Of a stretch of DNA of 21,676 bases, positions 13,481 to 17,628 are shown piece by piece (position 1 is the stretch's first letter; every line of letters begins with the position of its first letter). The position numbers were made by a program, and so were the translations under genes. The notes below the pieces were generated by a model, which did no database searches, was not told the DNA's origin, and was given only the letters and a program-made list of their open reading frames with translations. The DNA is from a virus: positions 1-21,676 of IMG/VR virus record IMGVR_UViG_3300025909_000016; one strand, written 5' to 3'.

Positions 13481-14080
13481 CTACTTCACTTGCAGATCAA
13501 TAACCATCGAGATTCGGTCTACTGACGACTCATTCCGAACTTCATGGAATAGATCGTTGCGAAACCAGAACAAACGCCCGGTCAGCATCTGCATCGTTTC
13601 ATCCTTCGAGCCATCCTCTTCCGCGCCGCACATGATGACGGCGCCGGGTTGCCCCTGAATTACTAAGTGGAATCTGCGCCAATACCGGCAATGCTCGGGC
13701 GTGTCGGCGTGACGGAAGATCCGGCCGCCCGGACGCACGCGATTGATCATTACCCTGCCGACCCGCGTCGCGCGCGTGAACCGCGCCAAGTCGTACACGA
13801 AATCGTGTGCCTGCGGCAGCGCATCCCACGACGGCCAGAATATCGACTCGTGCTGATCGTAGCCGGGCAGCTTGTTCTGCTTGTACAGCTCTATCTGCTC
13901 GTCGGTGAGGCCCGATGCGATTTCCGGGAATCGCAGCATGATCGTGTCGGTATCGCCGAACGGACCTTGCGGGTACTTGCGGAGATAGGTGTCTGCCTCC
14001 CATCGTGCCGGGTCCATCGACACAGCGAGAGCCAGAGCGCGGACGTCCATGCCGTCTCGGATAACGTTGAAATTCCTCAT
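13481..14080 (-). CDS. 2-oxoglutarate/Fe(II)-dependent oxygenase (Asp/Asn hydroxylase-like)
   Basis: 199 residues. The double-stranded beta-helix iron site is readable: H124-A-D126 (RIFRHADTPEH), the distal H179 (FRNDLFHEVRNES), and R189 in VDRISMVID, placed ten residues after the second His as expected for the 2-oxoglutarate carboxylate. The stretch RVMINRVRPGGRIFRH is typical of the aspartyl/asparaginyl beta-hydroxylase-like family. Such enzymes hydroxylate side chains of proteins, or sometimes small molecules, using O2 and 2-oxoglutarate; the substrate here is unknown. It is the last gene of the minus-strand operon and its start overlaps the preceding gene by ATGA. No signal peptide is seen, so it should act in the cytoplasm. 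Position among structural genes makes a virion protein one possible substrate, but nothing proves it. Confidence 0.82.
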   Translation of the reverse strand: MRNFNVIRDGMDVRALALAVSMDPARWEADTYLRKYPQGPFGDTDTIMLRFPEIASGLTDEQIELYKQNKLPGYDQHESIFWPSWDALPQAHDFVYDLARFTRATRVGRVMINRVRPGGRIFRHADTPEHCRYWRRFHLVIQGQPGAVIMCGAEEDGSKDETMQMLTGRLFWFRNDLFHEVRNESSVDRISMVIDLQVK

Positions 14081-14379
14081 CTATCGTTCTTCCTGTACCC
14101 GTTCTTCGTGTCGCGCGCTTCCATGTAATCCATCAGAGAAGCCGTCACCTGCTCGGAAATCATCTTCGCGAGGCGCTCGCGATCGATCTTGGTTTGGCGC
14201 TGGTAGTACGCCTCCGTAACGGCCTGAGGCCCGGACACCAGAACGAACATTGGATCGCTGCATACATCAACCGGCTTCATCTCCCTGATGACGGCTTCAG
14301 ACAGTCTGATTACGTAGGCGACGCTTTGTTGGCGATAATCGTCGAAATCCAGCGCGATGCGGAGTGTTGCTCCGTTCAT
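14077..14379 (-). CDS. Hypothetical protein (100 aa) of accessory operon
   Basis: Not recognised. A strong Shine-Dalgarno (AGAGGAAG on the minus strand, just upstream of the ATG at 14379-14377) and an ATGA overlap with the oxygenase gene support it. The protein is soluble. The N-terminal 35 residues start MNGATLRIALDFDDYRQQSV and the region 60-100 is charged and probably helical (KIDRERLAKMISEQ, then SLMDYMEARDTKNGYRKNDR). The gap to the membrane-protein gene upstream is only about 12 bases, so co-transcription is likely. It could be a partner of the oxygenase because of the coupling, but that is inference. Confidence 0.68.
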   Translation of the reverse strand: MNGATLRIALDFDDYRQQSVAYVIRLSEAVIREMKPVDVCSDPMFVLVSGPQAVTEAYYQRQTKIDRERLAKMISEQVTASLMDYMEARDTKNGYRKNDR

Positions 14380-14391
14380 TTTCTTCCTCTC

Positions 14392-14670
14392 TCAAAACGG
14401 AATTTTGAAGAACCAGACGACCGCCAGCCATGCCGATAGCGCAGCAGCCCACCAAAGAACGACGCGAAGCACGGACATTCCATTGCGGCGCCAATCCGTG
14501 ATGATCTCGCCCGGCATTCTCGCGACTTCAGCCGCTGCGTCGATCGCAGACTCGCGCGTAACGTACAGGACTCGAAGCGCGGCCGCACAGAGCAAAACGA
14601 CACACGCAACTTTCGGGGGCAGCACGAAGATGCAGAAGGCCGCGAACCAGGCGAAGATGATGATGCTCAT
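14392..14670 (-). CDS. Small membrane protein (92 aa), accessory operon
   Basis: The start is set at 14670 (MSIIIFAW) rather than a longer upstream reading because this ATG overlaps the stop of the preceding gene (ATGA, 14670-14667) and has AGGAAAGG shortly upstream. Hydrophobic segments are at about residues 2-17, 19-37 and 66-88, giving two or three transmembrane helices separated by a polar loop (ESAIDAAAEVARMPGEIITDWRRN). No family is recognised. Small membrane proteins in phage accessory cassettes often alter the host envelope or block superinfection, so that is a reasonable but untested idea. A holin role is less likely given the separate lysis module at 20.6-21.7 kb. Confidence 0.68.
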   Translation of the reverse strand: MSIIIFAWFAAFCIFVLPPKVACVVLLCAAALRVLYVTRESAIDAAAEVARMPGEIITDWRRNGMSVLRVVLWWAAALSAWLAVVWFFKIPF

Positions 14671-15089
14671 GCCGACACCTTTCCTGACCCATCGCACACA
14701 AAGCATTCTTGATCCGTGCCAATGTCAGGATCGCGCACCATTCGGCCTGTTCCGGCGCATGCCCCGCAAGTCTCTTGCTTGTCGCTCGCGGTCAATGCAG
14801 CGAGAAGGTGTCTGAGTTCATACGCATTCAGTGTGACGACCGTGCCGGGGCTGTCCTGCACTGTTGCGATAGCGGTCCCGACGCCGTTCATTTCCCATGC
14901 GTCTAAGAAGTATTTAATGTGTTCGCGAGTCAGGTCCATCGGCTGCACATCGCTCGCTGACTTGTCTGGAGAGACCACGTAGAGCGGCGTTCCTTCATCG
15001 GGCGCTGGTTTGAGCCATCTGACTCCTACATATCCGTCTTCTGTAATTTCAACCTCCCCGACCGGATACGCCTCTTTTTTCTCGTTCAT
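14667..15089 (-). CDS. CxxCxGxG zinc-finger protein (140 aa), first gene of accessory operon
   Basis: The C-terminus has two copies of the DnaJ-type motif, C108-GA-C111-AGTG and C129-FV-C132-DGSG, so a structural zinc site is likely. The N-terminal 100 residues contain a beta-rich start (PVGEVEITEDGYVGVRWLKP) and a helical middle (REHIKYFLDAWEMNG and AYELRHLLAAL). The two-motif finger is found in many small phage proteins of unknown role and may bind unfolded protein or nucleic acid. The start is backed by an AGAGGGGG Shine-Dalgarno immediately upstream. It heads the operon and faces the divergent promoter region shared with the scaffold gene. Confidence 0.72.
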   Translation of the reverse strand: MNEKKEAYPVGEVEITEDGYVGVRWLKPAPDEGTPLYVVSPDKSASDVQPMDLTREHIKYFLDAWEMNGVGTAIATVQDSPGTVVTLNAYELRHLLAALTASDKQETCGACAGTGRMVRDPDIGTDQECFVCDGSGKVSA

Positions 15090-15181
15090 ATTCCCCCTCT
15101 CTTTTCAATTAGTTATAGCCTCTCAATCATAACCACATCCCGTATACTTGTGGGAGTTTCCACCCACTAAAAGGTGAGTCA
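15090..15181. promoter_or_regulatory. Divergent intergenic promoter region
   Basis: This 92-base gap separates the minus-strand operon from the scaffold gene. The plus strand has a -10-like TATACT (15143-15148) but no convincing -35. The minus strand has TATGAT (15131-15126) as a -10-like hexamer, also without a good -35. The two candidates are about 12 bases apart, so polymerase binding to one could hinder the other. A short inverted repeat, GTGGG at 15150-15154 and CCCAC at 15163-15167, lies at the expected plus-strand start point and could be an operator. AAAAGGTGAG (15169-15178) is the scaffold ribosome site. Confidence 0.35.
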
Positions 15182-16048
15182 ATGCAAGAAGAAATCATCG
15201 AGCAACCCGACCTCGGCGCTCAGGACAACGAAGGGCAGCAGGGCGAGCAGACGCAGCCGGAAAACACCGGTCCCGCACTGTTCGATGACGTCGAAGAAAT
15301 CGTCGACAACGGCGGCGAAGGCCAGCAGGAAGGCGAAGGTGCTCAAGGCGCAGACCAACCGCAGCGCGAAAGCCTCACGTTCCGAAAGCTTCGCGAAATC
15401 AGTAATGCCGCGCTGAAGGATAAGCGCCGCCTGGAACGCGAGCTCGAAGAGATCCGCGCGAAGCTCCCGCAGGAAAAGCCGCAACTCGGCGCAAAGCCGA
15501 CGCTCGATCAGTACGACTATGACGAGTCGCGCTTCTCGGAAGCCTACGACAAGTGGATGGAGCAGAAGGTCGCGCAGGACCGCGCCGACCAGGAAAAGCT
15601 CAACGCGCAGCGCCGCGAGCAGGAAGAACTCGAAAACTTCAAAAAGTCGTACAAGGCGCGCGCTGATGCGCTCGGTGTCGACGACTTCCAAGAAGCCGAA
15701 GCCGAAGTCGGCGGCATCCTCAACCAGACGCAGAGCGGGCTGCTCATGCGCGGGGCTGATGACCCGGCGACGCTCGTCTATGCGCTGTCGAAGTCGCCCG
15801 AGCGCCTCATCGAACTGTCGAAGATCAGCGATCCGGTGAAATTCACCGTCGCCATTGCCAAACTGGAGTTGAACTTGACCACTCGCAAACAGAGCCGTCC
15901 CGCGCCGGAGCCGCGCGTGTCGTCGGAACGCTCGTCGTCTTCGGGCGTTGCAAGCAGTTCGCAACTCGACCGACTGCGCGAGAAAGCCGCTCGGACGGGC
16001 GACTATTCCGAAGTCGTTGCCTACAAGAAGCAACACAATATTCGCTGA
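15182..16048 (+). CDS. Scaffolding protein
   Basis: 288 residues (P22 gp8: 303). It lies immediately upstream of the coat gene, as in P22. Composition fits a scaffold: a very acidic, Gln/Gly-rich disordered N-terminus (1-62), long charged helices (65-160, for example RRLERELEEIRAKLP and NAQRREQEELENFKKSYKAR), and a short basic C-terminal helical hairpin (about 261-288, LDRLREKAARTGDYSEVVAY then KKQHNIR). The C-terminal basic helix-turn-helix is where scaffolds of this type bind coat protein. It directs procapsid assembly and is removed before or during packaging. It has a good ribosome site (AAAAGGTGAG). Direct sequence identity to gp8 is not obvious, so the call rests on position and architecture. 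Confidence 0.82.
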   Translation: MQEEIIEQPDLGAQDNEGQQGEQTQPENTGPALFDDVEEIVDNGGEGQQEGEGAQGADQPQRESLTFRKLREISNAALKDKRRLERELEEIRAKLPQEKPQLGAKPTLDQYDYDESRFSEAYDKWMEQKVAQDRADQEKLNAQRREQEELENFKKSYKARADALGVDDFQEAEAEVGGILNQTQSGLLMRGADDPATLVYALSKSPERLIELSKISDPVKFTVAIAKLELNLTTRKQSRPAPEPRVSSERSSSSGVASSSQLDRLREKAARTGDYSEVVAYKKQHNIR

Positions 16049-16062
16049 CTGCTTAGGTATCC

Positions 16063-16091
16063 TTGATTCACATAACTTAAAGTAGTAACAT
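16063..16091 (+). promoter_or_regulatory. Possible sigma70-type promoter for the coat leader
   Basis: TTGATT (16063-16068) and TAACAT (16086-16091) are separated by exactly 17 bases. Each matches four of six consensus positions. The predicted start point, about 16097-16099, lies just before the two-stem structure. This is a moderate match only, found by eye. Confidence 0.4.
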
Positions 16092-16097
16092 TCGGTG

Positions 16098-16230
16098 AAA
16101 CGCTGCCTGACGCACATAAGAGACATTCCTTCTGTGCTACCGGCAGCCACCGTATCTCAGCCCATCGGCGCGTAGGCGTTAGTTCTAGCTGGATGCGAAA
16201 TCTGTGGCGTTTCGACGCCTTTCATTTTTC
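16098..16230 (+). ncRNA. Structured leader of the coat gene, possible small RNA
   Basis: Two nested stems can be drawn: GCTGCC/GGCAGC (16102-16107 with 16142-16147), a symmetric 4/4 internal loop, then GCACA/TGTGC (16112-16116 with 16133-16137) with a 16-base loop. Further on is GGCGT, a TTCG loop, ACGCC (16206-16219) followed by TTTCATTTTTC, an intrinsic-terminator-like element. CGAAA at 16196-16200 can instead pair with TTTCG at 16210-16214, which would break the terminator stem. So this could be an attenuated coat leader or a separate RNA of about 130 bases. No known RNA family is recognised. Confidence 0.42.
16206..16230 (+). terminator. Intrinsic-terminator-like hairpin upstream of the coat gene
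   Basis: Stem GGCGT/ACGCC with a TTCG tetraloop, followed by TTTCATTTTTC. The stem is short (five pairs) but capped by a stable loop and followed by a T-rich run. It lies between scaffold and coat, 25 bases before the coat ATG, so it would limit read-through from the scaffold unless antitermination occurs. Confidence 0.55.
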
Positions 16231-16254
16231 GTCTCTTATTTAGGACTACACGTC

Positions 16255-17571
16255 ATGAGCAATCCTCCGTCCGCTCCTTTTCTGTCGACCGCGAACTCCT
16301 TCTCGAAGGAAGAGCGCGTCGCTTTCGAACGACTCCTCGAAGGCTTCAATGACCAATTGGTCATGTCGAAAGCCGTCACCGTGTTCCAAAACGATCAAAC
16401 GATGATGGCTCGCGCAGGCGACATCATCCGCCGCCCGATGCCCTACATCGCGCGTTCGTTCTCGGGCCTCGATCAAACGGCCAACTTCGTCGGCAAGACG
16501 CAGCTCACCATCCCGGCAGCGATCGACACGATCAAGAGCTCGCCGTGGACGATGGACGCAACCGAACTGCGCGACGCGCTGCAAGAAAATCGCCTGGGCA
16601 CCGCTGCGAAGCAAAAGATCGCGTCGGACATCAACCTGTCGGTCGTGAATGCCGTTTCGACGCTCGGCTCGCTCGTCGTCAAGCGTACCGTCGCCGCGAC
16701 CGGCTTCGACGATCTTGCGCAAGCTGATTCGTTGATGAACGAATCGGGTATCGACTACGACGGGCGCTATGCGGTATTCGGCTCGCGTGACTACAACGCG
16801 ATGGCCGGTAACCTCGCATCGCGCGCGTATCTGGTCGAAGGCCAGAAGGCCGCAGATGCGTTCGAAATGGCAACGGTCGGCCGTCAGGTCGCCGGCTTCG
16901 AGCGCGTTCTGAAGGCTGATTACATCGCGCGTCTGACGGCTGCGGCCGGCGTGACGGTGACGGTCAACGGCGCGAACCAGTTCACCACGCCGAAGGCGTT
17001 GGCAGCAAGCCCGAGCGGCCCCCTGCAATCGAACGTCGACAACCGCATCCAAGCGCTGGCGATCACCGTCACGTCGGGCACGGTCAAGGTGGGCGACGCC
17101 TTCACGATCGCGGGCGTGAACAACGTCCACCCGATCACGAAGGTCGACACCGGTCAGCCGAAGACCTTCCGCGTCGTCAGTATCGTTTCGGGCGCGGGTG
17201 GCACCGGCACGATCCAGATCACCCCGGCGATCATCTCGGGTCAGGGCGGCACCGACGCGGAACTCGCGTATCAAAACGTGACGGCAACCCCGGCATCGGG
17301 TGCGGCGATCACGTGGCTCAACACGGTTTCGACCGGCGTGAACTGCTTCTGGAAGAAGGAAGCGGTCGAAATCCTGCCGGGTCGTCTCGCAGTGCCGGCC
17401 GATCAAGGTCTCGCCGTTATGCGCGGCACGACCGATCAGGGTATCGAGATCGTGATGACCAAGCAGGCGCACATCGAGACGTACAAATCGCTGTATCGCG
17501 TCGACGCATTCTGGGGGACTTCGGTAACGAACCCTGAGATGTGCGGGGTCATCCTCTTCAACCAGACGTAA
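16255..17571 (+). CDS. Major capsid (coat) protein, P22 gp5-like
   Basis: 438 residues (P22 gp5: 430). Matches to the P22 coat include GRQVAGFERVLKADYI (209-224; P22 QRQVAGFDDVLRS), VTVNGANQFTTP (235-246; P22 ITVSGAQSFKP), VDNRIQALAITVTSGTVKVG (261-280; P22 [20 protein letters not shown]), then a DAFTIAGV continuation, and ITPAIIS. The stretch about 230-355 corresponds to the telokin-like I-domain inserted in the HK97 fold of P22-type coats. The C-terminus (SLYRVDAFWGTSVTNPEMCGV) is also alike. Start chosen at ATG 16255 because an in-frame GTG at 16204 would overlap the terminator-like hairpin and adds a 17-residue hydrophobic tail not expected in this family; AGGA lies nearby upstream (16242-16245). 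Confidence 0.93.
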   Translation: MSNPPSAPFLSTANSFSKEERVAFERLLEGFNDQLVMSKAVTVFQNDQTMMARAGDIIRRPMPYIARSFSGLDQTANFVGKTQLTIPAAIDTIKSSPWTMDATELRDALQENRLGTAAKQKIASDINLSVVNAVSTLGSLVVKRTVAATGFDDLAQADSLMNESGIDYDGRYAVFGSRDYNAMAGNLASRAYLVEGQKAADAFEMATVGRQVAGFERVLKADYIARLTAAAGVTVTVNGANQFTTPKALAASPSGPLQSNVDNRIQALAITVTSGTVKVGDAFTIAGVNNVHPITKVDTGQPKTFRVVSIVSGAGGTGTIQITPAIISGQGGTDAELAYQNVTATPASGAAITWLNTVSTGVNCFWKKEAVEILPGRLAVPADQGLAVMRGTTDQGIEIVMTKQAHIETYKSLYRVDAFWGTSVTNPEMCGVILFNQT

Positions 17572-17586
17572 GCAAGCAGCACAGGA

Positions 17587-17606
17587 AAGCGCCCTTCGGG
17601 GCGCTT
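17587..17606 (+). terminator. Stable hairpin after the coat gene (terminator-like, weak T-run)
   Basis: AAGCGCCC, a TTCG loop, GGGCGCTT: eight perfect pairs. It lies 15 bases after the coat stop. Only two T's end the stem, followed by CGCTTACC, so it lacks a proper T-run on either strand. It may pause or weaken transcription into the tail-fibre gene, or protect the 3' end of coat mRNA. Confidence 0.5.
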
Positions 17607-17628
17607 CGCTTACCACTGGGAGAATGCT

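Follow-up and report, generated by a model that had tools for sequence, protein, structure and literature searches.

A structured leader before the coat gene of a P22-like phage as a candidate two-state translational switch

Cis-acting translational switches are a known kind of regulatory element, and the balance of scaffold and coat protein in tailed phages is a long-standing question. Feedback by the scaffold protein of phage P22 has been known since the 1980s, to our knowledge without a defined RNA operator. According to a passage in PMC5744158 that cites Wyckoff and Casjens (1985), the P22 scaffold protein autoregulates its own gene, gene 8. That gene and the locus described here both belong to the capsid-assembly genes of P22-type phages and share a common gene neighbourhood, but in P22 the scaffold and coat genes overlap, leaving no leader between them, and neither of the two scaffold-start elements described below (an H-type pseudoknot and a C(A/G)CC..GGUGAG hairpin) was found in P22 itself. 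In phage T4, gene 32 is subject to autogenous repression through a leader pseudoknot 67 nt upstream that nucleates cooperative binding (PMC3014915). The scaffold-start pseudoknot of other P22-like phages resembles the T4 system in combining a phage protein gene, initiation control and a leader pseudoknot; unlike in T4, the Shine-Dalgarno (SD) sequence lies inside the helix, and inspection revealed no such pseudoknot in the leader studied here. Translational riboswitches and ribosomal-protein leaders, as a general class, use mutually exclusive anti-SD:SD and anti-anti-SD helices of the kind predicted here, whereas the present leader precedes a phage structural gene and has no Rfam match.

A conserved leader between scaffold and coat

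The window, by which we mean the whole 21.7-kb viral contig analysed, derives from a P22-like phage of Burkholderiaceae and encodes, besides the scaffold and coat genes (Table 1), a P22-type portal and large terminase subunit. The scaffold gene was identified by composition, by its place ahead of a P22-type coat, and by tblastn, which matched it to the ORF that precedes coat in relatives. The closest coat protein, 100% identical, was encoded by a Caballeronia turbans prophage; prophages of Paraburkholderia, Robbsia and C. glathei were further close relatives, and about 60 viral contigs encoded a coat at least 86% identical. Between terminase and scaffold, four small genes lay on the opposite strand (13481-15089, - strand), one of them encoding an Asp/Asn beta-hydroxylase-like protein; relatives carried other sequence at that place.

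Table 1. Features of the scaffold-coat region of the window, and scaffold-start pseudoknots at other loci
Feature	Position	Strand	Details
Scaffold start	15143-15178	+	-10 TATACT 15143-15148; CACC 15161-15164 / GGTG 15173-15176; SD GGTGAG 15173-15178
Scaffold gene, upstream neighbour of coat	15182-16048	+	288 aa; no Pfam match
Coat promoter	16063-16091	+	-35 TTGATT 16063-16068; 17-base spacer; -10 TAACAT 16086-16091; expected start near 16098
P1	16102-16147	+	Stem variable; apical loop GAG..A(U/A)UCC (16120-16129) conserved
P2 (predicted open state)	16151-16197	+	CGTATC-T-CAGC 16151-16161 with GCTGGATGCG 16188-16197
P2 inner stem	16167-16171 / 16176-16180	+	GGCGC / GCGTT
Anti-SD	16180-16187	+	TAGTTCTA; AGUCCUA in most relatives; in P2 internal loop, 3' side; nearly invariant
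Switch strand	16195-16200	+	GCGAAA; invariant; pairs with TTTCGT 16227-16232 in the closed state (ensemble folds)
P3 (terminator hairpin of the first-pass annotation)	16206-16219	+	UUCG-capped; then T-run 16220-16229, TTTCATTTTT
Coat SD region	16241-16248	+	TAGGACTA; predicted to be sequestered by 16180-16187
Coat gene	16255-17571	+	438 aa; Pfam P22_CoatProtein match, E 5e-97
Scaffold-start pseudoknot loci	L143:551-620, L149:561-638, L208:571-638, L313:239-272 and ~28 more		CRCCC(A)..(U)GGGUG with GCGG..CCGC-type second stem

The first-pass annotation of this DNA had drawn attention to a 206-base non-coding gap before coat; the gap was real, and every element named within it was located where the annotation had placed it. 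In nearly all measurable relatives (coat at least 86% identical) the scaffold-coat gap measured 200-219 nt; L050 and L085 had 440 nt by a scaffold-stop estimate, yet were alignable over the leader itself. Because indels that are not multiples of 3 break every reading frame, the coat leader is non-coding. A conserved upstream ORF starting at the near-invariant GGAUGCG was considered and ruled out, its frame and stop varying among relatives. As a lone consensus match the coat promoter scored 8/12, below the scan threshold, but comparison bore out the promoter-like pair of the annotation: all 21 of the 21 representatives had TTGNNN-N17-TANNNT at an unchanged register. At the scaffold start, 21 relatives shared TATACT and C(A/G)CC..GGTGAG, the -10 departing in a few cases; since this conserved TATACT lies ~35 nt before the scaffold start codon, each of the two genes, scaffold and coat, has its own promoter in the window clade. 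The fold of the gap gave z -3.2, one of 200 shuffles being equally good, and the terminator-like site was one of 11 found, against 8.9 expected from shuffles. Singly the elements are unremarkable; together they are more than chance.

Length, promoter and structure of the leader were conserved in about 50 relatives. It was present as a single copy per genome, always before coat, and was found nowhere else in 399 Burkholderiaceae genomes and in 148 and 58 congeneric genomes, and searches of plasmids and annotated phages returned no copies. Conservation, covariation and the presence of both promoters support the view that the gap is a conserved regulatory leader, structured and under its own promoter, that separates coat expression from that of scaffold; to this extent the annotation's interpretation is supported. 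Against Rfam 15 the window matched no family at the gathering cut-off; the best permissive match had E 0.54 and was antisense to coat, and permissive searches gave low-scoring matches only, far below any family's cut-off. No earlier description of such a leader was found in the open-licence literature, and it is probably a new RNA family.

Hairpins and predicted folds of the leader

When the gap was compared across relatives, compensatory changes were strong in P1 and weaker in P3. P1, which the annotation had recognized as a two-part stem, showed double changes in 10 of 10 core pairs, and its own arms paired far more strongly than swapped arms did (z -9.1). P3 covaried as well (swap z -5.3), so that of the proposed UUCG-capped hairpin and T-run the hairpin stood, conserved and covarying, and the T-run did not, being absent in the L046/L047 and L050 sub-clades. 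An all-pairs covariation test with a phylogenetic null placed three P1 pairs among its top four column pairs, P1 and P3 together making up all four, with E<0.05 for one pair only; this test is underpowered, though each of its four best pairs belongs to a genuine helix. P1 was also supported against a null in which column rates were kept. P2 was nearly invariant, with 99% of cells paired: in RNA its outer stem joins CGUAUC-U-CAGC with GCUGGAUGCG, and its inner GGCGC/GCGUU stem showed some covariation together with whole-helix insertions. Pairing of the P1 loop UCC with the coat SD was also considered; the two are complementary in some relatives, but the pairing was not favoured in folds, in which RNAfold cannot score it as a pseudoknot.

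The anti-SD AGUCCUA lies ~60 nt upstream of the SD UAGGA, and in full-length folds of nearly all relatives it paired with the SD region UAGGAYU. In the same closed fold GCGAAA was computed to pair with UUUCGU around P3, again in nearly all relatives. Two features of the SD-sequestering class of leaders were predicted, namely an anti-SD:SD pairing above shuffles (SD-paired probability 0.97-1.00 in 16 of 18 relatives, against ~0.7 with the upstream part shuffled) and a competing helix, P2, that would free the SD. Nascent-RNA folding of eight divergent leaders favoured P2 until the U-rich tract or the SD emerged, and the closed fold from then on; L050 ended mixed, with only about half closed in one folding frame. 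As nascent and full-length folds exchange P2 and the SD-closed fold, the two are predicted to be mutually exclusive, and the GGAUGCG strand is common to both. An RNA thermometer was rejected, the SD remaining paired from 20 to 50 C in seven of eight leaders and becoming more paired on heating in L050.

Within the window clade, swap tests of these parts gave z -2.6 for the P2 outer stem, -2.7 for the anti-SD and -1.6 for the whole switch strand, covariation being weak because the shared parts hardly vary there. The rate-keeping null held the SD pairing equally well in the leaders of this clade, which we call type I. Taken alone, the window clade offers conservation and thermodynamics, which are not proof of a switch.

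Look-alike leaders and scaffold-start elements in other P22-like phages

In most P22-like phages the gap before coat is short: it was <60 nt at about 200 of 238 coat loci, and in two phages other than P22 measured 37 and 17 nt. At about 29 coat loci it was at least 80 nt, and most of these held a look-alike leader, here termed type II, with about 28 leaders of the same layout in all: CCAUCC-NGCC-[anti-SD]-GGAUGAG-[hairpin]-CUCAUUC-[SD]-ATG. When all viral contigs were scanned for the motif, 15 matches were obtained, and in each the start codon of coat followed 72-79 nt after the beginning of the motif; the reading frame there was a P22-type coat in 15 of 15, truncated in some by the contig end or by the stretch read. 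The type II anti-SD and SD covaried (e.g., GCCUCUUGA/UCAAGAGGC, CCCUUUA/UAAAGGG and CCGAAA/UUUCGG). As this variable part does not align by column, and a column-wise count of the switch helix in a MAFFT alignment found no double changes, an alignment-free swap test was used. Among 25 type II sequences the closed helix had -19.2 kcal/mol with native partners and -13.8 kcal/mol with swapped ones (z -9.8, 0/20000); z was -9.5 for the anti-SD by itself and -4.7 and -5.3 for the competing hairpin, values that relatedness may inflate, though the set is diverse (mean column identity 39%). Because these helices covary in swap tests, there is good support in type II phages for a two-state SD switch that acts on coat.

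Type I and type II leaders occupy the same place and have the same order of parts: a hairpin strand, an anti-SD in a loop directly before a GGAUG strand, a hairpin, a pairing tract, the SD and the ATG. Type II leaders have a UCGCC..GGCAG hairpin and a short pseudoknot (CAUCC/GGAUG plus GG(C/U)/GCC), of which stem S2 was present and too uniform to test (z -0.1); P1 and the inserted GGCGC/GCGUU stem belong to type I, in whose sequences inspection alone revealed no S2 equivalent (GG(C/U) with GCC). In cross-searches, model R2 fell exactly on the L050 and L046 leaders (E 0.88 and 2.1), the window not being reported, and model R1 on the L322 leader (E 4.7). Homology between the types is thus not significant and suggestive only, and as the cross-searches were weak, we propose that the window leader works like type II and do not count it as a proven member. 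In L322, L164, L218/L219 and L385, an ORF of about 20-25 codons, mostly hydrophobic, lay between scaffold and coat and overlapped or abutted the coat start, a possible case of translational coupling; in L322 and L164 it came directly after the type II leader. A different leader was seen in L162 about 180 nt before coat, where a pairing of CCAGUUAAU with AUUAACUGG(AGG) is possible and would likewise mask the coat SD.

The type II model also recognized a compact element where the scaffold gene begins in many P22-like phages, although most of these matches scored below threshold. The element folds as an H-type pseudoknot, and its 3' strand, GGGUGAG, probably serves as the SD of scaffold; across 26 distinct sequences its stems covaried (S1 z -6.0, S2 z -6.2, control 0.2). 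The scaffold SD of the window clade lies instead in a simpler C(A/G)CC..GGUGAG hairpin.

Control of coat translation and alternative readings

We consider it likely that the window leader is a two-state translational switch that controls coat by SD sequestration, with P2 as its open state. The coat mRNA would have a 5' leader of ~155 nt when made from its own σ70-like promoter, and the leader would also be present on read-through transcripts from scaffold. During transcription P2 would form first, keeping the anti-SD in its internal loop and occupying the GCUGGAUGCG strand, and the coat SD would be free; in the closed state the anti-SD would cover the SD and GCGAAA would hold UUUCGU, with P3 enclosed, so that initiation is blocked. 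Binding of a factor to the P1/P2 part, with stabilization of P2, would turn coat translation on, and RNA without the factor would relax to the closed state. The first candidate for this trigger would be a phage protein, most simply the scaffold protein. The analysis supports such a switch through conservation, covariation of P1 and P3, the predicted exclusive folds and the covarying equivalent helices in the coat leaders of other phages; we infer that it works in the cell, in this direction and with a trigger of this kind. Unless there is a trigger, an off-by-default state for the most abundant virion protein is hard to explain.

The annotation had favoured a transcription attenuator or small RNA, in which P3 and its T-run would end most transcripts near 16230 and a competing pairing or regulated termination would set the coat level or free an RNA of about 130 bases. 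P3 (-5 to -10 kcal/mol, most relatives having 5-6 T among the next 8 bases) and the promoter just upstream would fit this idea, but the clades that have lost the T-run, those of L046 and L050, are the two most divergent, terminator-like sites were about as common as in shuffles, and the U-tract is accounted for by the pairing of UUUUCGU with GCGAAA in the SD-closed fold. For a small RNA, a discrete transcript with a conserved 3' terminator would be expected; the promoter was conserved and the U-tract was not. The proposed antiterminator pairing (CGAAA 16196-16200 with TTTCG 16210-16214), although present in the window, needs a loop sequence that most relatives lack and was not conserved among them. 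As the alternative pairing that is conserved is anti-SD:SD, control of translation initiation is indicated in place of attenuation, which we regard as very unlikely.

Control at initiation might also operate with no trigger, new mRNA being open while P2 lasts and closing as it relaxes, with the effect that coat would be made only from fresh mRNA. The order of folding, with P2 favoured before the SD is made and the closed fold after, agrees with a timer of this kind; such a timer leaves the conserved P1 loop and P2 internal loop unexplained, the folds computed are equilibrium folds only, and we think it unlikely. 5' hairpins commonly stabilize mRNA, and a passive leader, whose hairpins protect the message or fix its translation rate without switching, would suit the little covariation of the type I anti-SD:SD. 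We rate it as quite improbable, given that few parts of the leader are as well conserved as P2 and the anti-SD, which surpass the P1 stem, and that the equivalent SD helices of other phages show clear covariation and have a competitor hairpin that covaries too. Conserved loop bases, two mutually exclusive folds and the compact pseudoknot at other phages' scaffold starts could instead suggest a metabolite riboswitch with a ligand pocket formed by P1 and P2. This is the least probable of the readings weighed here, as the element matched no Rfam family and all its occurrences lay ahead of capsid-assembly genes, none ahead of a metabolic gene.

If the two-state switch on coat is real, it would represent a new translational RNA family absent from Rfam. 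SD-sequestering switches at the coat and scaffold starts of dozens of P22-like phages offer exact base pairs to mutate and sequences for binding tests, and since look-alike switches stand at the shell and scaffold gene starts across the family, RNA folding may govern shell assembly at the level of translation. Because the P22 scaffold autoregulates and related elements occur at both scaffold and coat starts of P22-like phages, we also raise, as an attractive but speculative reading that we consider doubtful, the idea that one phage RNA-binding protein, probably scaffold, might read both, repressing where the scaffold SD is held in a helix and activating where the coat anti-SD is held off the SD. 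In many P22-like phages the proportion of scaffold to coat would then depend on one protein-RNA contact, which would also hold coat back until scaffold had appeared. Beyond the leader, a strong UUCG hairpin (GAAAGCGCCCTTCGGGGCGCTTC) without a T-run was observed right after the coat stop (17585-17608), where it perhaps has a role in protecting the mRNA 3' end.
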